Shown here in pieces: positions 1,265 through 39,685 of a stretch of 64,000 nucleotides of DNA. Under the pieces are notes generated by a model. That model ran no database searches, was not told where the DNA came from, and worked only from the letters and a program-made list of their open reading frames with translations. Location: the NCBI RefSeq assembly GCF_011067135.1, contig NZ_JAAMOW010000009.1, forward strand, positions 1-64,000, given 5' to 3'. Source of the DNA: Solimonas terrae (lineage in GTDB: Bacteria > Pseudomonadota > Gammaproteobacteria > Nevskiales > Nevskiaceae). The first letter of the stretch is position 1, and each line of letters begins with the position of its first letter. The translations under genes and the position numbers were made by a program.

Positions 1265-3052
1265 TCACGACAGCAGGTCCGCCGGCACCTGCATCGGAAA
1301 GTCCATCAGGATCTGCGCCAGCATCTTGCCCTGCGGGTCATAGCGCAGGCTCGCCGTGCCGCCACCGCCGAGCGCGTTGTGCATCAGGAAGTTGAAACCG
1401 TGCAGACCGGGAATTTCGAAACGCTCGACCGGCCCTTTCGCGAAATGGGCGAAGTACTGTTTCACCGCATCGGCAGTCAGCTGCGCGCGCAGGATCGCGA
1501 CATATTCGGGCTTGCGCGCGAGCACGCCGATGTTGGCGGCATCGCCCTTGTCGCCGGAGCGGCCGTAGGCGAGCGCGATCAGCGGGACGGTCCTGGTTCC
1601 CTCTCCTCCGTGGGCAAGAGGATCGGGGTGAGGGGGCTGCCGCGCAGGACTTGATGCAGCATCGCCCGATCCGGCGCCCCTCTCCCCGCTCGGCACGGCG
1701 AGGGAGAAAGCCCGGCCGTCGATTTCGATGTTCACGCTGGACTTCGGCACCAGGCATGAGAACAGCGTGACGCGCGGCGTCGGTGTCGGCCGGCCGCCGG
1801 CGAAGCCGGTGATGCCCTGCACCATTGCCGTTGCCGGCGGAATGAATTCGCGGCCGAAGATGTCGAGCGCGGCCTTGTCGGCATGTTGCACGCCGATCTT
1901 CAGGATCACTTCACGCGCGTCGCGGCGGCGCGCATTCGTGCCCCAGTTCGCTTCGCTGCCCAGCACTTCGACATCGGTGCGCGTGTAGTCGGCGAGCCCG
2001 CGCGCCGCGAACAGCGTGCGCGTGCGCTTGAGGATCGCGGCACCGACGGCCTCGGCTTTGCGCACGGCATCGACGCCGCCGATCATCATCGTCGCGCTGC
2101 TGCGGAAACCATCCTGATACGTCGCCGAAACCTTGTACTGATCGCTCGGTGCGCGACCGCGCGCGCCGCTGACCTCGACCCGGTTCTCGCCGACCTGCCG
2201 GAGTTGCACGTCGCGCCAGTCGCAGCAGACGTCGGGCAGCAGATACGCGGCCGGATCGCCGATTTCGTAGACGATCTGTTCGGCGATCGTTTCCGGCGTG
2301 ACACGCCCGCCGGTGTTCGCCGGCTTGGTGGTGATGAAGCTGCCGTCCGCCTTGCAGATCGCGATCGGGAAGCCCATGCGGTCCCAGTCCTGCGCGACCA
2401 ACTGCCAATCGGTGCTCGCGCCGCCGGTGGCCTGCGCGCCGCACTCGATGATGTGGCCGGCCAGACTGCCGGCCGAGAGCTTGTCGTAGTCGTCGGCGGC
2501 CCAGCCGAATTCGTGAATCAGCGGCCCGAGCACGATCGCGCTATCGACGCAGCGGCCGGTCAGCACGATGTCGGCGCCGGCATCGAGCGCGGCGGCGATC
2601 GGGAACGCGCCGAGGTACGCATTCATGCTCCACAGCCTGGCCGGCATCGGCTGGCCGCTGAACATCTCCTTCACGTCGGCGAACTCGGCGGCTCGCGGCA
2701 GCAGATCGTCGCCGGTGACGATGGCGATCTTCAGCTCGATGCCGAGCGCCTTGAGCTTGTCCTCGATCGCCGCCTTGCAGGCCTGCGGATTGACGCCGCC
2801 GGCATTGGTGACGAGCTTGATGCCGCCGGTCTTGAGTCCAGTGGCGAGGCTGGCGACGACCGACGGCAGATCGGTGGCGTAACCGGCGTTCGGGTCCTTG
2901 GCGCGCGCCTTGGCGAGCAGCGACATGGTGATCTCGGCCAGATAATCGAGCACGAGGTAGTCGATCTCGCCGGACTCGACGAGCTGCTTCGGCCCTTCCG
3001 CCGAATCACCCCAGAAGCCGGCGCCGCAGCCGATGCGAATTTGGTCTTTCAT
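1265..3052 (-). CDS. atuA: AtuA-like acyclic terpene utilization protein (DUF1446 family) with an in-frame repeat insertion
   Basis: 595 residues. The protein begins MKDQIRIGCGAGFWGDS and shows the conserved blocks of the AtuA/DUF1446 family (TNAGGVNPQAC; LTGRCVDSA; GRSGDKGDAANIGVLA near the C-terminal domain). In Pseudomonas atuA belongs to the citronellol/geraniol catabolic locus, and its biochemical role is unsettled. The two conserved halves are separated by an odd segment of about 35 residues rich in G, P and S (containing PPHPDPLAHGGEG). Its DNA at 1597-1710 looks like an intergenic repeat inserted without breaking the frame. It sits between a crotonase and a TetR/biotin carboxylase pair. 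The start at 3052 is preferred over the upstream ATG at 3076. Confidence 0.88.
   Translation of the reverse strand: MKDQIRIGCGAGFWGDSAEGPKQLVESGEIDYLVLDYLAEITMSLLAKARAKDPNAGYATDLPSVVASLATGLKTGGIKLVTNAGGVNPQACKAAIEDKLKALGIELKIAIVTGDDLLPRAAEFADVKEMFSGQPMPARLWSMNAYLGAFPIAAALDAGADIVLTGRCVDSAIVLGPLIHEFGWAADDYDKLSAGSLAGHIIECGAQATGGASTDWQLVAQDWDRMGFPIAICKADGSFITTKPANTGGRVTPETIAEQIVYEIGDPAAYLLPDVCCDWRDVQLRQVGENRVEVSGARGRAPSDQYKVSATYQDGFRSSATMMIGGVDAVRKAEAVGAAILKRTRTLFAARGLADYTRTDVEVLGSEANWGTNARRRDAREVILKIGVQHADKAALDIFGREFIPPATAMVQGITGFAGGRPTPTPRVTLFSCLVPKSSVNIEIDGRAFSLAVPSGERGAGSGDAASSPARQPPHPDPLAHGGEGTRTVPLIALAYGRSGDKGDAANIGVLARKPEYVAILRAQLTADAVKQYFAHFAKGPVERFEIPGLHGFNFLMHNALGGGGTASLRYDPQGKMLAQILMDFPMQVPADLLS
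1597..1710. repeat. Repeat-like element inside atuA, kept in frame
   Basis: This segment has CCCTCTCC and GGGGTGAGGG blocks at one end and CCCCTCTCCCCG / GAGGGAGAAAG blocks at the other. This is the purine/pyrimidine pattern of intergenic REP-type repeats often seen between GC-rich proteobacterial genes. Its translation (PHPDPLAHGGEG) is the typical product of such a repeat. It has no counterpart in the flanking conserved domains. A perfect palindrome of the same composition lies at 39692-39719. Confidence 0.6.
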
Positions 3053-3077
3053 CTTTTCACTCCGACTCCCGCTCATC

Positions 3078-3181: not shown

Positions 3182-3976
3182 TCAGTTGCCCGTGAACTGC
3201 GCCGCCCTCTTTTCCTGGAAGGCGGCCATGCCTTCCCTGGCGTCTTCGGTCGACGACATCACCGGCACCATCGCTTGCGCGTATTCGAGCGACTCGCGCA
3301 GGCCCATGTCGCGCATCGCGTTGTAGGCCTGCTTGCCGAGGCGGATCGCGGTCGGCGACTTGTCGATGATGCGGGCGAGCAGCCAGTCGAGCCTGGCATC
3401 GAGTTCGGCGCGCGGCACGACGTAATTGACGACGCCCCACTGCAACGCCTCGGCGGCCGTGAACTGTTCGCCGGTGATGCACATCTCCTGCAGCTTGCGC
3501 GGCGGCAGCACGCGCAGCATGTACGGCAGGATCATCATCGGCGTGACGCCGATCTTCGCTTCGGTCGTGCCGATGCGGATGTCATCGGCGGCGATCGCCA
3601 TGTCGCAGGCGCAGAGCAGACCGAAGCCGCCGGCCATGACATGACCGTTGACACGGGCGATGACCGGCAGCGTGCATTCCTGCAGACGCTTGAACAGATC
3701 GACGATGTAGTGCTTCGGCCGTGCGAAGTCGACGGCGAATGCGAAGCCCTGGGTGCCCTTCGCGAGATCGGCACCGGCGCAGAACGCCTTGTCGCCGATG
3801 CCGGTGATGACGATGGCGCGCGACTCGCCGTCCCGGGTCGCGGCGTCGATCGCCTGATCGATCGTCCGCACAACCCCCTCGTTGAGCGCATTGCGGCGCG
3901 CCTCGCGATTGATCGTGATCCAGCAGACGGCGCCGCGGCGCTCGACCAGCACGGGATTTTCGACGGCCTCGGACAT
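3182..3976 (-). CDS. Enoyl-CoA hydratase/isomerase (crotonase family)
   Basis: 264 residues, usual crotonase length. It has the oxyanion-hole segments KAFCAGADL and NGHVMAGGFGLLCACD and the conserved IGTTEAKIGVTP region. It likely hydrates an unsaturated acyl-CoA, for example a methylglutaconyl-CoA or terpenoid intermediate, in the cytoplasm. ATG at 3976 is chosen because AGGAGCGAGC lies just upstream as a ribosome binding site. It is first in a minus-strand operon with AtuA, TetR and biotin carboxylase. The exact substrate cannot be read from the sequence. Confidence 0.9.
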   Translation of the reverse strand: MSEAVENPVLVERRGAVCWITINREARRNALNEGVVRTIDQAIDAATRDGESRAIVITGIGDKAFCAGADLAKGTQGFAFAVDFARPKHYIVDLFKRLQECTLPVIARVNGHVMAGGFGLLCACDMAIAADDIRIGTTEAKIGVTPMMILPYMLRVLPPRKLQEMCITGEQFTAAEALQWGVVNYVVPRAELDARLDWLLARIIDKSPTAIRLGKQAYNAMRDMGLRESLEYAQAMVPVMSSTEDAREGMAAFQEKRAAQFTGN

Positions 3977-4134
3977 GCTCGCTCCTGCGTTGCGTTCACT
4001 GCGCAAATGGCGCGCGGAAATTGCGAATGGGGACAGGCGACGAGCGTGCCCGGTCGCTGGTGAGTCTGCCTCACCCATTTGTGCGAGCGCGGCCGCCGGC
4101 GGGCATTTCCGCTTGTTTGCGCCTAGAATGGGCG

Positions 4135-4325
4135 CGATCGCAGGTGCCTGAAGGCCGCTCGGCCGGACGGTGAAACGGGAAGTTCGTAAGGGGCCGCTGT
4201 GTCCCTGCAAGCGAACACTGCCCCCGCAACGGTAAGTGGGATACGCGGCACACCGCCACTGGACGAACCGTCCGGGAAGGCGCCGCCAATCCAAACCCAC
4301 GAGTCCGGAGACCGGCCTGCGTTCA
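4135..4325 (+). promoter_or_regulatory. Cobalamin (adenosylcobalamin-type) riboswitch
   Basis: The element has the ordered conserved blocks of a B12 riboswitch: GGTGCC near 4143, GTGAAACGGGAA near 4169, the CTGCCCCCGCAACGG block with GTAAGTGGG, the B12 box GCCACTGG...GGGAAGGCG around 4254-4282, and the 3' block AATCCAAACCCACGAGTCCG. Transport-type B12 riboswitches shut off uptake genes when cobalamin is plentiful. It directly precedes the BtuB-like receptor, which supports a vitamin B12 substrate. Confidence 0.95.
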
Positions 4326-4329
4326 TGTT

Positions 4330-4384
4330 CCGTGGTCGCGGCGGGCGACTCAGCGGGTGTGGCGGTTTGCCACGCCGACCACGG
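4330..4384 (+). promoter_or_regulatory. Candidate riboswitch expression platform hairpins
   Basis: CCGTGGTCG (4330-4338) pairs perfectly with CGACCACGG (4376-4384) and encloses a smaller hairpin GTGGC-GGTTT-GCCAC (4359-4373). It lies between the aptamer and the receptor start. There is no U-run, so control of translation initiation or Rho-dependent control is more likely than intrinsic termination. Confidence 0.5.
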
Positions 4385-4411
4385 CCTGTCTGTCGTTCAG
4401 CGGGACGGTTC

Positions 4412-6349
4412 GTGGCAGCGATTCGACATCTTCACGCACGCGGGATTCCCGTCGTTCTGGCGCTGTGCGCCGGCTGGCCGCTGGCAGCGCGCGCCGACGA
4501 CGCGCCGAACGAACTGCCGACGGTCACCGTGATCGGCGAGCGCAGCGAATTGCAGGACAGCGGCGTCGTCATCCGCGTGCCGGTCGCGCCGCTCGGCGCC
4601 AGCAGCCTCGCCGATCTGCTCGCCGCGCTGCCCGGCGTGCAGGTGCGCAGCAGCGGCGGACTCGGCAGCTACAGCGAGGCCAGCCTGCGTGGCAGCAGCG
4701 GTCGCCAGGTGCGCGTCCTGCTCGACGGCCTGCCGCTCGATACCGGCGGCGGCGACGCGACTTCGCTGTCGCTGGTCAGCCCGCTGCTGCTCGACCGCGT
4801 CGACGTCTATGAAGGGCGCGTGCCGGTCGCGCTCGGCAGCGGTCTGGCCGGCACCATCAATCTGCGCACGCGGCGCGCGCTGGCGGCGCCGGTGGTCTAC
4901 GCCGGCAGTGTCGGCAGCTTCGGCGCACGGCAGTACGACGTCGCGGCACAGCTCGGCGACGACGTGCAGCTCGCGCTCGGCGGGCAGGCCGCCGACAACG
5001 ACTTCCACTTCGTCAACAAGTTCAAGCCGTTCGATCCCGACGATCCGGACCGGACCGACAGCGAGCGCCGACAGAACGCGGCTACCAGCCAGTACTACGG
5101 CCTGCTGCGTTACCGCGGCCCGCTGGAGATCACCGCGCATGTGGTCGACGACATGCAGCAGCTGCCGGATCACGCCAACAGTCACAGCGCGGACGCCCAG
5201 CTCGACACGCATTCCTATGCCTTGTCGCTGAGCACGCCGGAAGAGGCGCTCTGGCAGGCGGCGCTCTCGCACCGCGTCACGCGCGAGGACTATCGCGATC
5301 CGCACAGCCAGATCGGGCTCGGCGCACAGGAAACGCAGTCCGACACACGACGCACGCTGCTCAGCGTCGGCCGCCGCTTCGAACAGCTGCAGGACAGCCT
5401 GAGCAGCGAGTACATCGACTACTCGGCGGACGATCACATCGCCAGCGTGCCGACCGCCAGCGCGCGTCGTTTCGGCATCCGCAACGGCGTCGCCGCGCAG
5501 ATCGGCGATCTTCGCCGCTACAACGCCAGCCTGATCACCGGCTGGTCGCGTGACGGCAGCGCCGGCCGCCAGGACGATCGCTGGCAGCTCGAACCGGCGA
5601 TCGGCGCCAGCCAGCAATTCGACAGCTGCCTGGCGGCGATCAATCTCGGCCGGCGTCAGCGCCTGCCGACCTTCTTCGAACGCTATGGCGACCGCGGCCT
5701 GTTCAAGGGCAATCCGGCGCTCGATCCGGAGACCGCGAACTACGGCGATCTCGGCGTGCGCTGCCGGCCGGGCGAACACCTGCAGCGGCTCGAACTGACA
5801 CTGTTCGGCCAGGACCTGCATGATGCGATCAGCCCGACCTATGACGCGCAGGGTGTGGGCCATTCGATCAACACTTCGCATGCGCTGATCTACGGTGCCG
5901 AACTCGACAGCGCCGGCAGCGTCGCCGGCTTCGGCTGGCAACTCGGCGGCACCTGGCAACACACCGAAGACCGCAGCGACGTGCGCGCGACGCGCGGCAG
6001 GCAACTGCCCGGCCGCTTCGAAACACAGATCAATGCGCGCATCGAACGCGCCTGGCGGGGCCTGATCTTTCACTATGCGTTCCGCTTCGAGGCCGGCGCG
6101 TACTACGACAGCCCCAACCTGCTGAAGACGCCGGCCATGCAGCGCCATGACCTCGGCGTACGCGGCGCACTCGGCGCACTCGGCTGGTCGCTGCAGGCGC
6201 TGAATCTCGGCGACCAGCACTCCGAACAGTTCAACGGCTACCCGACCCCGGGACGGCAATGGCTGCTGTCGCTGAGTTATCCGGGCAGCGCCGCCGGGGC
6301 TGCCGACTCCACCCCACCCGAACCACCGACCGAAGGGACCTACCGATGA
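4412..6349 (+). CDS. btuB: BtuB-like TonB-dependent vitamin B12 receptor
   Basis: About 645 residues. A signal peptide (PVVLALCAGWPLAARA) is followed by a TonB-box-like ELPTVTVIG, a plug domain (LADLLAALPGVQVRSSGG; GSSGRQVRVLLDGLPL; GSGLAGTINLRT) and a 22-strand-type barrel ending in LLSLSYPGS. It should import cobalamin across the outer membrane with TonB energy. The riboswitch upstream makes the substrate call strong. The start is uncertain: GTG at 4412 after GGGACGG gives a clean signal peptide, while ATG at 4325 lies in the riboswitch tail. Its stop overlaps the next gene's ATG (ATGA), coupling the two. Confidence 0.9.
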   Translation: MAAIRHLHARGIPVVLALCAGWPLAARADDAPNELPTVTVIGERSELQDSGVVIRVPVAPLGASSLADLLAALPGVQVRSSGGLGSYSEASLRGSSGRQVRVLLDGLPLDTGGGDATSLSLVSPLLLDRVDVYEGRVPVALGSGLAGTINLRTRRALAAPVVYAGSVGSFGARQYDVAAQLGDDVQLALGGQAADNDFHFVNKFKPFDPDDPDRTDSERRQNAATSQYYGLLRYRGPLEITAHVVDDMQQLPDHANSHSADAQLDTHSYALSLSTPEEALWQAALSHRVTREDYRDPHSQIGLGAQETQSDTRRTLLSVGRRFEQLQDSLSSEYIDYSADDHIASVPTASARRFGIRNGVAAQIGDLRRYNASLITGWSRDGSAGRQDDRWQLEPAIGASQQFDSCLAAINLGRRQRLPTFFERYGDRGLFKGNPALDPETANYGDLGVRCRPGEHLQRLELTLFGQDLHDAISPTYDAQGVGHSINTSHALIYGAELDSAGSVAGFGWQLGGTWQHTEDRSDVRATRGRQLPGRFETQINARIERAWRGLIFHYAFRFEAGAYYDSPNLLKTPAMQRHDLGVRGALGALGWSLQALNLGDQHSEQFNGYPTPGRQWLLSLSYPGSAAGAADSTPPEPPTEGTYR

Positions 6350-7530
6350 AGCTGAAAACCTGTCTGCTGCTGATCCCGGGCCTGCTGCTCGCCGCCTGCG
6401 GCGGCGGCCATGGCGACAACGCCGGCGACAGCCTGACGCATGTCGCCGTCGTCGCCACACGCGCGCCGGACTACGGCAGCGGTGCGATCTCGCTGATCGA
6501 CACCACCGCGCCGTTCACCGCCCGCAACGGACTCGACTCGACGATTTCCGACATCGCCGTGCGTGCCGACGGTGATCACTACTTTGTCTTCAAGCGCTAT
6601 GGCAGCAACCAGATCGCACGCTACGACGCGGCCGATCCGGCGACACCGGTGTGGACCTACTCCACCAACGACAGCGACGGCGAACAGAGCAATCCCTACG
6701 ATCTGATCGTCGCCAGTCCGACCAAGGCCTACCTGCTGCGCTACGGCTCGGGCACGCTGTGGATCGTCAATCCGTCAGCCGGCAGCGAAGCGAACTTCAA
6801 GACCGGCGAGATCGATCTGTCGGCCTACGACAGCGACGGCGTGCCGGAGATGGCCGCCGGCCTGATCAAGAACGGCAAGCTCTACGTGCTGATGCAGCGC
6901 CTGCAGAACTACGACGCGACCCAGGACGGCTACGTCGCCGTGATCGACACCGCGACCGACACCGAAGTCGACACCGGCAAGGGCAGCGACGGACTCAAGG
7001 GCATCGAACTGCCGGTATTCAATCCGTCGGCGATCGTCGCGGTACCGGGCACCGACACGCTGCTGATCAGCGCATCCGGTGCCTACGGCAGCTATCCCGA
7101 CTACGTTCCGCCGTACAACGGCGGACTCGTCCGCCTCGACACCGACAGCGACACGGCAACGCTCGCGCTCGACGACGGCGATGCCGACACGCACGCGTAC
7201 GGACAGTTCGACGCGCTGGCGGTCGTCGATGCGCATCGCGCGTACTTCGTCGGCAGCAACGGCTACGGCGACACCGACCAGACCCTGTATCGCATCGACC
7301 CGGGCGCGACGACGATCGCGCCGGTTGCCGTCAACGACTTTGCCAACCGCGATCTCGGTGCCCTGGCCGTCGATCCGGACGGCCAGCTGTGGGTCGCGCG
7401 CACCAGCGACGCCGCGCCCGGCCTGAGCGTGCTCGGCTTCGACGGCAGCCAGGAAACCGTCAACAAGGCGCTGATCGACACCGTGCTGACGCCGATCAAC
7501 ATCGACTTCGGCGAGGTTCCGACGGAATAG
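6346..7530 (+). CDS. Beta-propeller-like lipoprotein coupled to btuB
   Basis: 394 residues with a lipoprotein signal (CLLLIPGLLLAAC, then GGGHGD), so probably anchored to the outer membrane. The mature part has repeating 40-50 residue blocks of the YncE/NHL type (VAVIDTATDTEV, GGLVRLDTDSDTATL, LYRIDPGATTIAP, GALAVDPDGQLWVAR), rich in Asp and Gly, which suggests a beta-propeller. The ATG overlaps the btuB stop, so it is under the same cobalamin riboswitch. A B12-capture or receptor-lid role like Bacteroides BtuG is an attractive inference. No sequence identity to BtuG is claimed. Confidence 0.85.
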   Translation: MKLKTCLLLIPGLLLAACGGGHGDNAGDSLTHVAVVATRAPDYGSGAISLIDTTAPFTARNGLDSTISDIAVRADGDHYFVFKRYGSNQIARYDAADPATPVWTYSTNDSDGEQSNPYDLIVASPTKAYLLRYGSGTLWIVNPSAGSEANFKTGEIDLSAYDSDGVPEMAAGLIKNGKLYVLMQRLQNYDATQDGYVAVIDTATDTEVDTGKGSDGLKGIELPVFNPSAIVAVPGTDTLLISASGAYGSYPDYVPPYNGGLVRLDTDSDTATLALDDGDADTHAYGQFDALAVVDAHRAYFVGSNGYGDTDQTLYRIDPGATTIAPVAVNDFANRDLGALAVDPDGQLWVARTSDAAPGLSVLGFDGSQETVNKALIDTVLTPINIDFGEVPTE

Positions 7531-10244: not shown

Positions 10245-12524
10245 TCAGGCGGGCGTCGCGTCCGCCAGCGTCGCGCGCGCCGCACGTGCGGTCGCGACCA
10301 TTCGCGTCAGCGCCGCCTCGGTTTCCGGCCAGCCCCGAGTCTTCAATCCGCAGTCTGGGTTGATCCACAGTCGATCGGCCGGCAGCACGGCGAGCGCCTT
10401 GTCCAGCAAGGCCGTCATCTCCTCGCGCGTCGGCACACGCGGCGAGTGGATGTCGTAGAGGCCGGGGCCGATGTCGTTCGGATAGCGGAAATCAGCGAAG
10501 GCATCCAGCAGTTTCATGCGCGCTCGCGAGGTCTCGATGGTAATGACGTCGGCGTCCATTGCGGCGATCGCCGGCAGGATGTCGTTGAACTCCGAGTAGC
10601 ACATGTGCGTGTGGATCTGCGTCTCGTCGCGCACGCCCGAGGCCGTGATGCGGAACGCCTGCACGGCCCATTCCAGATAGGCCGGCCGGTCGGCCTGCTT
10701 CAGCGGCAACCCCTCGCGGATCGTCGGTTCGTCGATCTGGATGATGCGAATGCCCGCCGCTTCCAGATCGACCACTTCGTCGCGCAACGCCAGCGCCAGC
10801 TGCAGTGCGACCTCGCGTTTCGGCAGATCGTCGCGCACGAAACTCCAGAACAGCATGGTCAGCGGGCCGGACAGCATGCCCTTCATCGGTCGGTCGGTGA
10901 GTGACTGTGCGTAGGTCGACCACTCGACGGTCATCGCGCACGGCCGCGAGACGTCGCCGTGGATCACCGGCGGCTTCACGCAGCGCGAGCCGTAGCTCTG
11001 CACCCAGCCGTTCTGCGTGAACGTGTAGCCGTCGAGTTGCTCGCCGAAGTATTCGACCATGTCATTGCGTTCCGGCTCGCCGTGCACCAGCACGTCGATG
11101 CCGAGCGCTTCCTGTCGTTCGACCACGCTGCGGATTTCCGCCTGCATCGCCGTGCGATAGTCCGCTGCGTCCAGCGTGCCGGCCTTGCAAGCTGCGCGGG
11201 CAGCACGGATTTCGTCGGTCTGCGGGAACGATCCGATCGTCGTCGTCGGCAGCTTCGGCAGTCGCAGCTGTGCCTGCTGCGCGACATGACGTGTCGCAAA
11301 CGGCGTGGCACGGCGCGCGTGTTCGGGCTTCAGAGCGGCGACGCGCGCACGCACGGCGGCTACCTGCGTGCTCGGCGCCCGGCGACGATCGGCGATCGCG
11401 CTGGCCGCGACGTGCAGCTCGCGCCAGACCGAGCCCTCGCCGTCGCGCAAGGCGCGCTTGAGCAACGCCAGCTCGTCGAGCTTCTGCACCGCGAACGCCA
11501 TCCAGTTGCGGATGCGCGGTTCGAGTCGCCGCTCCAGCCGCAGGTCGGTCGGCACGTGCTGCAGCGAGCAAGAGGTCGCGATCCACAGCCGCTCGCCAAG
11601 CGCGGCCTGCGCGGCATGCAGCGTCGTCAATGCCGCAGCGAGATCCGTGCGCCAGAGATTGCGGCCGTCGACGATGCCGAGCGACAGCACCCGATCCTGC
11701 GGCCATTCATCGACGAACTGCGCGAGCTGCTGCGGCGCACGGACCAGATCGAGATGCAGGCCTGCGAGCGGCAGCGCGCGCAGCATTGCCGCATGCTCGC
11801 TGACATCGCCGAAGTAGGTCGCCAGCAGCAGCTGCGGTCCGGCGCCGGCGAGCTCGCCATAGCTCGTCACGAAGGCCTGCCGCCAGTCCGCCGGCAGATC
11901 GAGGGACAGTATCGGCTCGTCGAGCTGCGCCCATTCGACGCCAAGCGTCTTCAGTTCCGCAAGCAGGACCCAGTAGACATTGAGCAGCAGCGACAGCAGC
12001 GCGAGCTTGTCGAGGCCGGCCTCGGCTTCGCCCAGCCACAGCCAGGTCAACGGCCCCGGCAGGACGACCTTGATTCGATGGCCGAGCGCCTGTGCCTCGC
12101 GCACTTCCGGCAGCAGCCAGTCGCGATTCAGCGCAAAGCGCGTGTCCGCCGCGAGTTCCGGCACCAGATAGTGATAGTTGGTGTCGAACCATTTCTTCAT
12201 CGCCAGCGCCGGCTGTTCGGGCGTGCCGCGCGCCATCGCGAAATAGTCGGCAAGGCCAGGCGACGGACCGACACCGAAGCGTGCCGGCGACGCGCCGACC
12301 AGCGCGGTCAGGTTGTGCAGATGGTCGTAGAACGCGAAGTCGCCGACCGTGACGAAGTCGAGTCCGGCATCGCGCTGCTGCTGCCAGTGCCGCCGGCGCA
12401 GGGCGCGCGCCGCTTCGTGCAGACCCGCTTCGTCGAGCGCGCCGCGCCAATGCGCCTCGACGGCGGTCTTCAGTTCTCGCTGTGCGCCGATGCGCGGAAA
12501 GCCGAGGATGTGGGCAACGGGCAT
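10245..12524 (-). CDS. metE: Cobalamin-independent methionine synthase MetE
   Basis: 759 residues, the normal MetE length. It begins [19 protein letters not shown] and holds the C-terminal zinc site ([12 protein letters not shown] and [11 protein letters not shown]). It methylates homocysteine from methyltetrahydropteroyl-triglutamate in the cytoplasm. ATG at 12524 has GAAGG upstream and fits the family start. Extensions to 12584 are not credible. It is transcribed divergently from metR, the classic arrangement for MetR activation with homocysteine as co-effector. This enzyme lets the cell make methionine without B12. Confidence 0.97.
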
Positions 12525-12577
12525 GGCAGAACCTTCACGAAAAGAACCGGCCGTCATGGTCAGCGCGCCGCTTCCAT

Positions 12578-12620
12578 GATTCAATCTCAGCGTTTTCCCG
12601 TTTTTGATGAATTCAATTAA
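12578..12620. promoter_or_regulatory. Putative MetR operator region between metE and metR
   Basis: TTGA-TGAAT-TCAA at 12604-12616 (containing the palindrome TGAATTCA) and a half-site TGATTCAA at 12578-12584 resemble the TGAA...TTCA dyads bound by MetR. They lie in the 107-bp divergent gap, about 16 bases upstream of the metR ATG. This suggests metR autoregulation and metE activation. Site assignment is inferred from pattern only. Confidence 0.5.
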
Positions 12621-12631
12621 TAGGCATCCAC

Positions 12632-13531
12632 ATGGCCCAGTCGCCGCTCGAAATCCGTCATCTGCAGACCCTGGTCGCGCTCGCCGACAGCGGCTCGCTC
12701 GCCAAGGCGGCCGATCGCGTGTTCGTCACGCAATCCGCCCTGTCGCATCAGCTCAAGGCGCTGGAAACCCACTACGGCACCGCGCTGTTCGAGCGCAATA
12801 CCAAGCCGCTGCGCTTCACGCAGGTCGGTGCGCGGCTCGTCGCGCTCGGTCGTGACGTGCTGGCGCAGCTGGGCGAGGCCGAGCGCGAGATCGTGCAGCG
12901 CGTCTCCGGCAGCAGCGGCGAACTTCGCATCGTCATCGAATGCCACACCTGCTTCGACTGGCTGATGCCGGCCATGGACGCCTTTCGCGAGCACTGGCCG
13001 CAGGTCGAACTCGATCTGGTCGGCGGCTTCCAGACCGCACCGATGTCGCTGGTCGAGCAGGGGCTTTGCGATTTCGCCGTGATTCACGACCGGCCGGCGC
13101 GACGGCCCGGCATCGTCACCGAGCATTTGTTCAGCTACGAGACACTGGCGATCCTCGCGCCCGAGCATCCGCTCGCCGAGCGCGACCATCTGACACCTCG
13201 GGATTTTCTGTCGGATACGCTGATCAGCTATCCGGTCGACGACGCGATGATCGATGTCGTGCGCCATTTCCTCGCCCCGAAAGGCATCAAACCGAAGCGG
13301 CGCAACGCGGAATTGACGGTGGCGATCCTGCAGCTGGTCGCCAGCCGGCGCGGCATCGCCGCGCTGCCGGACTGGAGCGTGATGCCGTATCTGGAACGTG
13401 GCTACGTGATCGGCAAACCGCTGGGCAGCAAGGGCCTGAAGTGCGAGCTGCATGCGGCAATGCCGGAGAGCCTCGCGGACAAACCCTACATGCGCGACTT
13501 CATCGCCAAGGTCCGCGACGGCATGCGCTGA
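12632..13531 (+). CDS. metR: LysR-family regulator MetR
   Basis: 299 residues. The N-terminal winged helix ([35 protein letters not shown], residues about 10-45) is followed by a LysR substrate domain with the MetR-typical [18 protein letters not shown]. MetR activates metE and other methionine genes with homocysteine as co-inducer. Divergent position next to metE supports the assignment strongly. Confidence 0.95.
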
Positions 13532-36403: not shown

Positions 36404-39400
36404 ATGACCGACCTTTCCGTTCCCGCGCCACTCAAGCCGTACAAGGCCAAGCACAAGGTGCGCTTCGTCACCGCCACCTCGCTGTTCGACGGCCACGACG
36501 CGACCGTCAACATCATGCGCCGCATCCTGCAGGGCACCGGCGCCGAGGTGATCCATCTCGGCCACAACCGCTCGGTCGGCGAGATCGTCAACGCCGCGCT
36601 GCAGGAAGACGTGCAGGGCCTGTGCATCACCTCGTACCAGGGCGGCCATACCGAATTCTTCAAGTACATGGTCGACCTGCTGCGCGCCAACGGCGGCGAG
36701 AACATCAAGATCTACGGCGGCGGCGGCGGCGTGATCGTGCCGGCCGAGATCAAGGAGCTGATGGGCTACGGCGTCGCGCGCCTGTACTCGCCGGAAGACG
36801 GCGCCAGCATGGGCCTGCAGGGCATGATCAACGACGTCATCCAGGGCTGCGACTACGACCTGACGCCGCTGGCGCCGAAGCCCGGCGAGGCTTTGAAAGC
36901 GCTGAAATCCGGCAGCCGCCGCGATCTGGCACGCGCGATCACCGCGATCGAGAACGGCAGCTATCCGGATGCGCTCAAGGCCGACATCCGCAAGGCGGCC
37001 GCCGACATCAAGACGCCGACGCTCGGCATCACCGGCACCGGCGGCGCCGGCAAGTCGTCGCTGACCGACGAGCTGGTGCTGCGCCTGCGTCTCGACCAGA
37101 ACGACGCGCTGAAGATCGCCATCATCTCGATCGACCCGTCGCGCAAGCGCACCGGCGGCGCGCTGCTCGGCGACCGTATCCGCATGAACGCGATCGAGCC
37201 TTGGACCGAAGGCCAAGACAATGTCTACATGCGCTCGCTGGCAACGCGTGACACCGGCAGCGAACTGTCGGCAGCCCTGCCGGACGTGATCGCCGCCTGC
37301 AAGCTGTCGGGCTTCGACCTGATCATCGTCGAGACCTCGGGCATCGGCCAGGGCGATGCGGCGATCGTGCCGTTCGTCGACACCTCGCTGTACGTAATGA
37401 CGCCGGAATTCGGCGCCGCGTCGCAGCTCGAGAAGATCGACATGCTCGACTTCGCCGACTTCATCGCCATCAACAAGTTCGATCGCAAGGGCGCGGCCGA
37501 TGCGCTGCGCGACGTGCGCAAGCAGTACCAGCGCAACCGCGAACTGTTCATGCGCAAGCCCGACGACATGCCGGTCTACGGCACGATGGCGTCGCGCTTC
37601 AACGACGATGGCGTGACGGCGCTGTATCAGGCGCTCGCCGAAAAGCTCGGCGCGCTCGGTCTCAAGCTTGCGGCCGGCAAGCTGCCGAAGGTCACGGTCA
37701 AGGCCTCGTCGGAAGGTCGCGCGATCGTGCCGCCGGAACGCGTGCGCTATCTCGCCGACATCGCCGATACCGTGCGCGGCTATCACAAGGAAGTGGCGCG
37801 ACAGGCCCGCGTTGCACGCGAGCGCCAGTCGCTGCAGATCGCCAAGGCCTTGTTCGAGGCGGCCGGCAAGCCGGCAAGCGGCTTCGACGAACTGGTATCG
37901 GCCAAGGACGGCGAGCTGACGACGGAAGCCCGGAAGCTGCTCGCGCGGTGGCCGGAGCTCGTCGCACGCTACGCGCAGGACGAGGACGTCGTGAAGATCC
38001 GCGACAAGGAGATCCGCACCAAGCAGACCAGCGAATCGCTGTCCGGCACCAAGGTCCGCAAGGTCTCGCTGCCGCGCTTCGAGGACGACGGCGAAACCCT
38101 GCGCTTCCTGATGAAGGAAAACCTGCCGGGCTACTTCCCGTTTGCCGCCGGCGTGTTCCCGTTCAAGCGCGAAGGCGAGGACCCGACCCGCATGTTCGCC
38201 GGCGAAGGTGATGCGTTCCGCACCAACCGCCGCTTCAAGCGCGTGTCCGAGGGCATGCCGGCGCATCGCCTGTCGACCGCGTTCGACTCGGTGACGCTGT
38301 ACGGCTGGGACCCGGACCTGCGCCCGGACATCTACGGCAAGGTCGGCAACTCCGGCGTGTCGATCGCCACGCTTGACGACATGAAGGTGCTGTACTCGGG
38401 CTTCGATCTGTGCGCGCCGACAACCTCCGTGTCGATGACGATCAACGGCCCGGCGCCGATGATCCTGGCGATGTTCATGAACACCGCGATCGATCAGCAG
38501 GTCGAACAGTTCACCGCGGCCCAGAAGCGCGCGCCGAATGCCGAGGAGCACGCGGCGCTCAAGGCCAAGGCGCTGTCGACGGTGCGCGGCACCGTGCAGG
38601 CCGACATCCTCAAGGAAGACCAGGGCCAGAACACCTGCATCTTCAGCACCGAGTTCGCGCTGAAGATGATGGGTGACATCCAGCAGTACTTCGTCGAGCA
38701 CAAGGTCCAGAACTTCTACTCGGTCTCGATCTCCGGCTATCACATCGCCGAAGCCGGCGCGAACCCGATCAGCCAGCTCGCCTTCACGCTCAGCAACGGC
38801 TTCACGTACGTGGAGTCGTATCTGGCGCGTGGCATGCACATCGACAGCTTCGCGCCGAACCTCTCGTTCTTCTTCTCGAACGGCATGGACCCGGAGTACA
38901 CGGTGATCGGCCGCGTCGCACGTCGTATCTGGGCGGTGGCGATGAAGAACCGCTACGGCAGCAACGAGCGCTCGCAGAAGCTCAAGTACCACGTGCAGAC
39001 CTCGGGCCGCTCGCTGCACGCGCAGGAGATGAACTTCAACGACATTCGCACGACCCTGCAGGCGCTGCTGGCGATCAACGACAACTGCAACTCGCTGCAC
39101 ACCAACGCCTACGACGAGGCGATCACGACGCCGACTGAAGAATCCGTGCGGCGCGCGATGGCGATCCAGCTGATCATCAACCGCGAGTTCGGCCTTGCGA
39201 AGAACGAGAACTCGCTGCAGGGCAGCTTCATCGTCGACGAGCTGACCGATCTGGTCGAGGAAGCCGTGCTCAAGGAATTCGAGGCGATCGCCTCGCGCGG
39301 CGGCGTGCTCGGCGCGATGGAAACCGGCTACCAGCGCGGCAAGATCCAGGAAGAGTCGCTGTACTACGAACACAAGAAGCACGACGGCTCGCTGCCGATC

Positions 39401-39685
39401 ATCGGCGTCAACACCTTCCGCAATCCGAAGGGCGACGACGAGCAGCATGAAATCGAATTGGCACGTTCGACCGACGACGAGAAGCAGTCGCAGCTGACCC
39501 GTCTCAAGGACTTCCATAAGCGCAACGCCAAGGATGCACCGGCCATGCTCGGGCGCCTGCGCGATGCGGTGATCGCCAACGACAACGTCTTCGAAGTGCT
39601 GATGGATGCCGTGCGCATCTGCTCGCTCGGCCAGATCACGCAGACGCTGTTCGAAGTCGGCGGCCGTTATCGCAGGAATATGTGA
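36404..39685 (+). CDS. icmF: Fused isobutyryl-CoA mutase IcmF
   Basis: 1093 residues, the IcmF length. An N-terminal B12-binding domain with base-off motif LFDGHD (residues 28-32), a MeaI-type G-protein chaperone domain with P-loop GTGGAGKSS (211-219) and a C-terminal mutase barrel. Substrate-pocket residues Phe585 (GVFPF) and Gln742 (GQNTCIF) match the isobutyryl-CoA type rather than the Tyr/Arg pair of methylmalonyl-CoA mutase. His780 (SGYHI) is the family's active-site His. It interconverts isobutyryl- and n-butyryl-CoA using adenosylcobalamin. Confidence 0.96.

Follow-up and report, generated by a model that had tools for sequence, protein, structure and literature searches.

The closest described counterpart of the locus reported here is the BtuG/BtuB pair of Bacteroides. 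In the accessible text of PMC10404256, BtuG2 caps the transporter BtuB2 and binds corrinoids on the negatively charged face of its propeller, whose loops hold the ligand like pliers. Two papers describe BtuG as confined to Bacteroidetes or as not found elsewhere, and in open-licence papers other than preprints we recognised no pair of this kind, with a riboswitch, a transporter and a propeller, outside Bacteroidota. According to the available part of PMC13398666, BtuJ-type (DUF4465) B12 binders already reach other clades, so it is not in itself new for B12-binding proteins to occur outside that phylum. The DNA studied here comprises positions 1 to 64,000 of contig NZ_JAAMOW010000009.1 of the gammaproteobacterium Solimonas terrae (forward strand; this whole 64-kb stretch is called the window), in which three features follow one another:

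4125-4334, plus strand: cobalamin riboswitch aptamer RF00174 (cmscan 99.3 bits, E 1.3e-23, full-length model 1-189)
4412-6349, plus strand: TonB-dependent transporter of BtuB fold, propeller-paired subfamily (Plug, TIGR01779, AlphaFold2 fold; putative GTG start)
6346-7530, plus strand: BtuG-like lipoprotein with a predicted seven-bladed propeller (sequence, lipobox, AlphaFold2, Foldseek, charge)

Together they quite probably form a divergent BtuBG-type module for the capture and uptake of vitamin B12 (corrinoids), located outside Bacteroidota. A preliminary description of this DNA had placed a cobalamin riboswitch ahead of the gene pair and had the lipoprotein ATG overlapping the btuB stop, and the locus is indeed built in this way: the RF00174 match, for which the gathering score is 31.5 bits, is the sole one in the window to reach an Rfam gathering threshold, and no further cobalamin riboswitch was detected elsewhere in the genome (4.42 Mb, 20 contigs), while the transporter stop and the lipoprotein start share the letters ATGA at 6346.

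This arrangement recurs across genomes. Locus counts sum four samples, namely 61 genomes (the window's own and 60 relatives), contigs from GTDB, a class-wide sample and the phylum of G426, the genome holding locus L033, whose record is labelled as a Desulfocicer vacuolatum metagenome-assembled genome. The propeller was found in 16 of the 61 genomes, and all 16 keep the order riboswitch, transporter, propeller, in the window and in 15/15 fetched loci of relatives; the recurrence in every one of the 15 relatives with the gene makes the arrangement more than chance. All three GTDB contig loci (L033, L034 and L035) likewise have riboswitch, transporter and propeller, and the record of L035 is labelled Granulosicoccaceae, a family of Gammaproteobacteria. 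Class-wide, 23 of 369 genomes match the propeller; with two already counted and the weak match of G232 (E 6e-4) left out, as was a second contig piece of G353, 20 loci remained, with a riboswitch in 16 and some transporter match in 19 (weak and at plug level only at L079). The class-wide riboswitch misses are L060, L076 (a partial gene) and L077, which reach contig ends, and L079, a weak propeller match (E 2e-11) counted as a miss. In the phylum of G426 the propeller matched in 17/198 genomes, and the 16 further loci fetched gave a riboswitch in 11 and a transporter match in 14, the misses L097 and L100 lying at contig ends. Overall, a cobalamin riboswitch stands at 46/55 propeller loci, or at 46/50 once contig-end loci, which account for five of the nine misses, are excluded; the search for the same pair behind B12 riboswitches in related genomes, which the preliminary description had suggested as a check, thus returned a conserved pair.

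The three elements lie in this order on one strand at 43 of the 46 loci. At L104 the riboswitch lies between the main propeller gene, which it follows, and a second, weaker one; at L105 two riboswitches precede two propeller genes by about 500 bases and no transporter match was found; and at L108 the main propeller precedes the transporter, with the riboswitch 3.8 kb upstream. These same stretches carry two BtuG-like genes each (998-2116 and 7250-8368 in L105; 2307-3572 and 5354-6469 in L104; also L108), some of them directly behind a cobalamin riboswitch of their own. Across 325 pairs from 26 loci, the divergence of the transporter correlates with that of the propeller (Pearson 0.87, uncorrected for shared ancestry).

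The lipoprotein has 394 amino acids (ATG at 6346, stop ending at 7530) and bears the lipobox LAAC, followed by a Gly-rich linker. Its AlphaFold2 model, built from an 18-sequence alignment, is all-beta (predicted local distance difference test score, pLDDT, 87.4; predicted template modelling score, pTM, 0.86), and points with good confidence to a seven-bladed propeller, the blades following from our own strand ordering, with blade 7 closed by the C-terminal strand and three N-terminal strands. For the repeated YncE/NHL-like blocks noted earlier, no YncE or NHL model reached its cut-off, but the propeller itself is what AlphaFold2 gives. In a Foldseek search of the PDB with this model, the first 13 ranks belong without exception to chains of BtuG (entries 8okv, 8bmy, 8bmz, 8bai, 8bn0, 3dsm, 8bmx and 8p97; E 7e-13 to 8e-10), followed by XusB (ranks 14-16 and 19), LRP2, AztD and YncE, among others. 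With VIA-align, entries 1-11 are again all BtuG (Z 33.4-30.3, root-mean-square deviation 2.8-3.9, 309-323 residues), ahead of 1l0q (Z 29.6) and 1ri6 (Z 28.2). The modelled fold therefore has BtuG as its nearest solved structures, which answers the proposed AlphaFold check of the lipoprotein alone and goes against the non-propeller fold named there as a refutation, although BtuG leads unrelated propellers by a modest 1-4 Z units or so, and the predicted fold by itself is not decisive. The propellers of AztD, YncE, WD40-type proteins and nitrous oxide reductase were considered as nearest fold and set aside, since they rank below BtuG in both structure searches. The mature lipoprotein has a net charge of -33; the homologues counted, 17 in number, lie between -14 and -44, and BtuG2 is given a net charge of -18 in the accessible text of PMC10404256.

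Sequence comparison reaches BtuG through intermediates. Profile A3, for which seven genomes in the phylum of G426 supplied eight intermediate sequences, matched nine BtuG-type sequences in the PDB (8okv, 8puj, 8p97, 8bmy, 8baz, 8bai, 3dsm, 8bmx and 8bn0) with E 4.8e-11 to 1.6e-9, the next match being at 0.036; seven of the nine are identified as BtuG by the available parts of PMC10404256 and PMC6143338 or by PDB titles, and 8puj and 8baz are labelled just 'YncE family protein' and 'Surface layer protein'. By hhalign, an 11-sequence set including those eight matches the 42 sequences of the window's family (100%, E 1.6e-70, a value that refers to a very small set), and A3 matches, along its full length, BtuG together with a DUF5074 protein of Persicobacter (97.5% probability, E 6e-12). 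The Bacteroides BtuG of L113, from a B. finegoldii plasmid, is a DUF5074 protein (E 1.9e-20) whose numbering fits BtuG2. Identity between the window lipoprotein and BtuG is about 15%. That the lipoprotein is a distant homologue of BtuG, connected through intermediates rather than directly, is well supported by these profile comparisons; the claim is made because of the A3 result, the fold and the chain through intermediates, and the pooled profile A2 is not relied on. The 'BtuG analogue' of the preliminary description can accordingly be raised to a distant homologue, since below E 0.036 the A3 profile gives no PDB sequences other than BtuG-type ones.

The open frame of the transporter runs from 4199 to 6349, and a start at the GTG of 4412, which gives a signal-peptide-like beginning, is the presumed one, with a putative TonB-box-like PTVTVIG after the signal peptide. 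Pfam Plug matches the protein at E 2e-15. On the BtuB model TIGR01779 it scores 91.7 bits against a cut-off of 599.7, still the best of 13 NCBIfam models, and other paired transporters behave similarly (L018 72.9, L030 48.0, L035 80.7 and L034 145.3 bits). Four canonical BtuBs of relatives score 372.6, 591.7, 611.4 and 621.0 bits, two of them below the cut-off, and E. coli BtuB 903.2. The low score is not evidence against B12, because the Bacteroides BtuB that stands beside BtuG in L113 itself scores just 50.3 bits. Dedicated profiles divide the transporters: on the profile of the paired group its 26 members reach 525-818, as against 70-183 on the canonical profile. The 12 canonical transporters reach 777-946 on the canonical profile, which was built from the same rows that it scores, and 125-162 on the paired profile. 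E. coli BtuB, the independent check, obtains 414 with the canonical profile and 124 with the paired one; for Bacteroides BtuB the values are 94 and 121. The AlphaFold2 model of the transporter (pLDDT 82.7) has E. coli BtuB 2gsk as its best Foldseek match (E 2.6e-30), and VIA-align places BtuB1 of B. theta first (Z 37.4), then E. coli BtuB (36.0) and PqqU (35.5), with many TonB receptors close behind. Judged by its profile scores, the transporter belongs to a separate BtuB-fold subfamily that travels with the propeller, and is neither canonical BtuB nor the BtuG-partner BtuB of Bacteroides; the name btuB given to it earlier holds for its fold and its regulon, but not in the sense of canonical BtuB.

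The genomes without the pair offer a further comparison. A cobalamin riboswitch occurs in 57 of the 61 genomes, and among the 74 sites listed, 20 without a propeller were examined: 16 have a transporter match, 12 of which were used for the canonical profile, and L135 is a riboswitch site with no transporter match. The canonical transporters at such sites are often followed by genes that look, by eye, like cobalamin biosynthesis or salvage genes. In each of the 13 propeller-free genomes sampled, out of 45, a cobalamin riboswitch is followed by a canonical-like BtuB, and G024, G034 and G035 have both the canonical and the paired kinds of transporter. In the window's genome MetH is above its cut-off, a protein of the methylmalonyl-CoA mutase family is encoded in the window at 38111-39661, and there are two Peripla_BP_2 proteins; no close canonical BtuB was found with a congener's BtuB as the query (best 53 bits, 29% over residues 10-206), nor was a CobA-type adenosyltransferase (TIGR00708), other adenosyltransferase families not having been searched. 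Because this genome needs B12 (MetH, mutase) and is without a close canonical BtuB, the pair is probably its main outer-membrane route for B12.

With regard to the binding site, 28 positions are at least 90% identical in 36 aligned rows and are biased to the loop-rich face of the propeller (B-C and D-A loops; mean height 0.71 vs 0.54), a bias reached by 1/358 circular shifts and by 230/20000 random draws; this test and the one on loop conservation mentioned below are exploratory, the faces having been assigned from strand order rather than from model coordinates. Ten loop positions were examined, and six of them (43, 133, 161, 189, 257 and 307) have an aromatic residue in 92% or more of the 36 rows; these six are candidate corrinoid contacts. 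The pocket residues of BtuG are, in the accessible text of PMC10404256, Trp194, Tyr239, Trp272, Tyr316 and Tyr335; located in P0003, they were not placed on the conserved aromatics by hhalign, about 15% identity being too low for reliable placement.

As for anchoring, the lipobox pattern is present in 35 of 43 A2 rows, and two of the eight misses (L063 and L064) show a relaxed NGC box by eye. The residues after the lipoprotein Cys of the window protein are GGGHGDNAGD and do not contain the Bacteroidota lipoprotein export signal (LES), which in BtuG2 is MKWD (PMC6143338); because that phylum-specific signal is lacking, the protein is classed as BtuG-like and not as BtuG. Five propellers without a lipobox carry C-terminal CFI-box motifs instead: those of L033, L098 and L102 exceed the NCBIfam cut-off, that of L034 falls slightly short of it and that of L097 is recognised by eye. 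It seems that different anchors display the same propeller.

We propose that scarce cobalamin would let the riboswitch permit expression of the BtuB-fold transporter and, via the overlapping start codon, of the propeller lipoprotein. The acidic lipoprotein would sit on the outer membrane above the transporter, where its loop-rich face would bind the corrinoid and pass it on, and the transporter would import it in a TonB-driven step. The riboswitch, the gene overlap, the lipobox, the predicted propeller fold nearest to BtuG, the homology through intermediates and the conserved linkage are what the analysis shows; the sign of the riboswitch, the corrinoid ligand, the orientation at the surface and the lid-like complex are what we infer.

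Several results weigh against a B12-capturing BtuBG-type module. A phmmer search of the PDB with the window lipoprotein gave no match; profile A1 found BtuG-type chains at E 0.18-0.22, behind 4a2l (0.0016) and 9m58 (0.012), and the pooled profile A2 found BtuG at 0.003-0.012, behind 4a2l (1.9e-9), 3v9f and 9m58, top matches (histidine-kinase propellers and 9m58) that we take, without proof, to be repeat-driven. The Pfam scan of the lipoprotein (E<=1) returned only DUF5074 (17 bits vs a cut-off of 27.2) and Reg_prop (13 vs 20.4), both sub-threshold, and the NCBIfam scan returned zero matches at E<=1. The nearest Bacteroidota sequences found are the propellers of L115 and L116, at E ~1e-23 with the family profile compared with 1e-5 for BtuG, both values referring to a very small set of 57 sequences, and the L115 propeller is adjoined by a phosphopantetheinyl transferase. 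Four uncut propeller loci (L079, L098, L110 and L112) are without a riboswitch at the gathering score. The face bias of near-identical positions is not significant once Gly, Pro and Ala are removed (2302/20000 draws), and mean loop conservation does not differ between the propeller faces (permutation p 0.59). No route to the cell surface was identified for the lipoprotein. The L115 and L116 genes themselves (4659-5846 and 5644-6837) encode propeller lipoproteins of Phocaeicola and Prevotella adjoining TonB receptors, and possibly represent a siderophore-type pair and a wider superfamily of propellers with TonB receptors.

Three other explanations were considered. The pair might serve another cobalt- or corrinoid-related ligand, such as a cobalt chelate, cobinamide or another precursor, under the cobalamin riboswitch, with the propeller capturing a ligand other than B12. 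Propeller/TonB-receptor pairs of the XusAB type take up siderophores (accessible text of PMC13142918), XusB is the family that follows BtuG in Foldseek, and siderophore- or heme-receptor models beat TIGR01779 in the paired transporters of L018 and L035, two of the three others in one comparison, and in that of L034, scored separately; the pocket residues of BtuG, moreover, cannot be placed reliably at such low identity. Nevertheless, BtuG tops all other propellers in both structure searches and provides the only A3 matches better than 0.036, every propeller-free genome sampled has a canonical-like BtuB behind its cobalamin riboswitch, and the window's genome needs B12 and is without a close canonical BtuB, so that another ligand appears unlikely to us. 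The propeller gene might instead be a passenger, co-transcribed by chance and unrelated in role, its product being for instance a YncE-like envelope protein; we regard this as very improbable. YncE-type propellers are common and no functional domain model is above its cut-off in the lipoprotein, but the riboswitch is kept at 46/55 loci, both within the class of the window and within the phylum of G426, and transporter and propeller diverge together.

The remaining explanation concerns the side of the membrane. A lipoprotein on the inner leaflet of the outer membrane, facing the periplasm, could receive B12 from the transporter or aid transporter assembly. The missing Bacteroidota-type export signal after the Cys (as defined in PMC6143338) agrees with such a location, and an Asp at +2 stands in 3/35 lipobox homologues, a further point against surface display. 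In enterics, Asp at +2 is an inner-membrane retention signal. SLAM (PF04575) was found in 0/61 genomes, but also in 0/14 controls, and is therefore uninformative. Against a periplasmic position speak the nearest fold, BtuG, which is an outside lid in the available part of PMC10404256, the CFI-box, a putative sorting motif, in five lipobox-free homologues, and the strong negative charge shared with BtuG; we consider it quite unlikely. A surface-exposed, corrinoid-capturing BtuBG-type module is thus retained as the preferred explanation.

Around the module, no BtuF, BtuC, BtuD, BtuH or BtuJ gene was recognised by eye among the neighbouring frames, and a promoter/terminator scan gave one promoter-like site within the transporter gene and zero terminators, a result left unused here. 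A metE gene (10245-12584, minus strand) and a divergent gene for a LysR-type regulator (12632-13531, plus strand), both recognised by eye, lie 2.7 kb downstream of the module, and the Rfam scan of the window gave this region (10245-13531) no riboswitch of its own. On the other side, genes for AtuA and an enoyl-CoA hydratase (1265-3076 and 3182-3970, minus strand), of the acyclic terpene utilisation type, are transcribed away from the module. At three propeller-free sites in relatives (L122, L130 and L134) the cobalamin riboswitch precedes an aldehyde dehydrogenase gene (stretch 4321-6147 in L122, where alone Pfam Aldedh was scored, E 1e-138), followed by genes that by eye are like those for acyl-CoA dehydrogenase, enoyl-CoA hydratase and hydroxyisobutyrate dehydrogenase; a valine/propionate catabolic operon is possibly under B12 control there.

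Our results suggest that propeller-lid capture of B12 is more widespread than reported. If so, high-affinity capture of B12 at the surface would be a general strategy across phyla, which would explain the B12 supply of B12-requiring bacteria without canonical BtuB, would yield new corrinoid binders and would raise the testable question of how such a bacterium brings the lipoprotein to its surface. A broader idea, which we offer tentatively as plausible without yet favouring it, is that surface propeller-lid capture is an old exchangeable module and not a Bacteroidota invention: two alternative outer-membrane systems, canonical BtuB alone and a distinct BtuB-fold transporter with a BtuG-like propeller, would stand in for one another behind cobalamin riboswitches among bacteria of two or more phyla besides Bacteroidota, and the same propeller would be displayed by an N-terminal lipid without LES or by a C-terminal CFI-box. 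Were this true, those bacteria would have an undescribed surface-display route for lipoproteins.

Compared with known systems, canonical BtuB of E. coli (TIGR01779) shares with the window transporter a BtuB-like fold and a cobalamin riboswitch upstream, but the two are far apart on the BtuB model (903.2 and 91.7 bits). XusB/XusA, a DUF4374 xenosiderophore propeller lipoprotein with its TonB receptor, is alike in pairing a propeller lipoprotein with a TonB-dependent transporter; it differs in its siderophore ligand (accessible text of PMC13142918) and its lower structural rank than BtuG, and DUF4374 had no match in the window lipoprotein in the Pfam scan (E<=1). Propellers of the DUF5074/YncE type have the same general fold, and the BtuG of L113 belongs to DUF5074, while the window protein stays below the cut-off of that family. 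With BtuG1-3 of Bacteroides thetaiotaomicron and their BtuB, the differences are the identity of about 15%, the window protein without LES and apparently outside Bacteroidota, the order of the genes (transporter first in the window, BtuG first in the Bacteroides locus L113) and the surroundings, where none of BtuF, BtuC, BtuD, BtuH or BtuJ was recognised by eye beside the window pair. The likenesses are a transporter and lipoprotein linked to a riboswitch, a predicted seven-bladed propeller for which BtuG is the nearest solved fold, an acidic character, a distant homology via intermediates and, in both, a partner transporter that scores low on the BtuB model.

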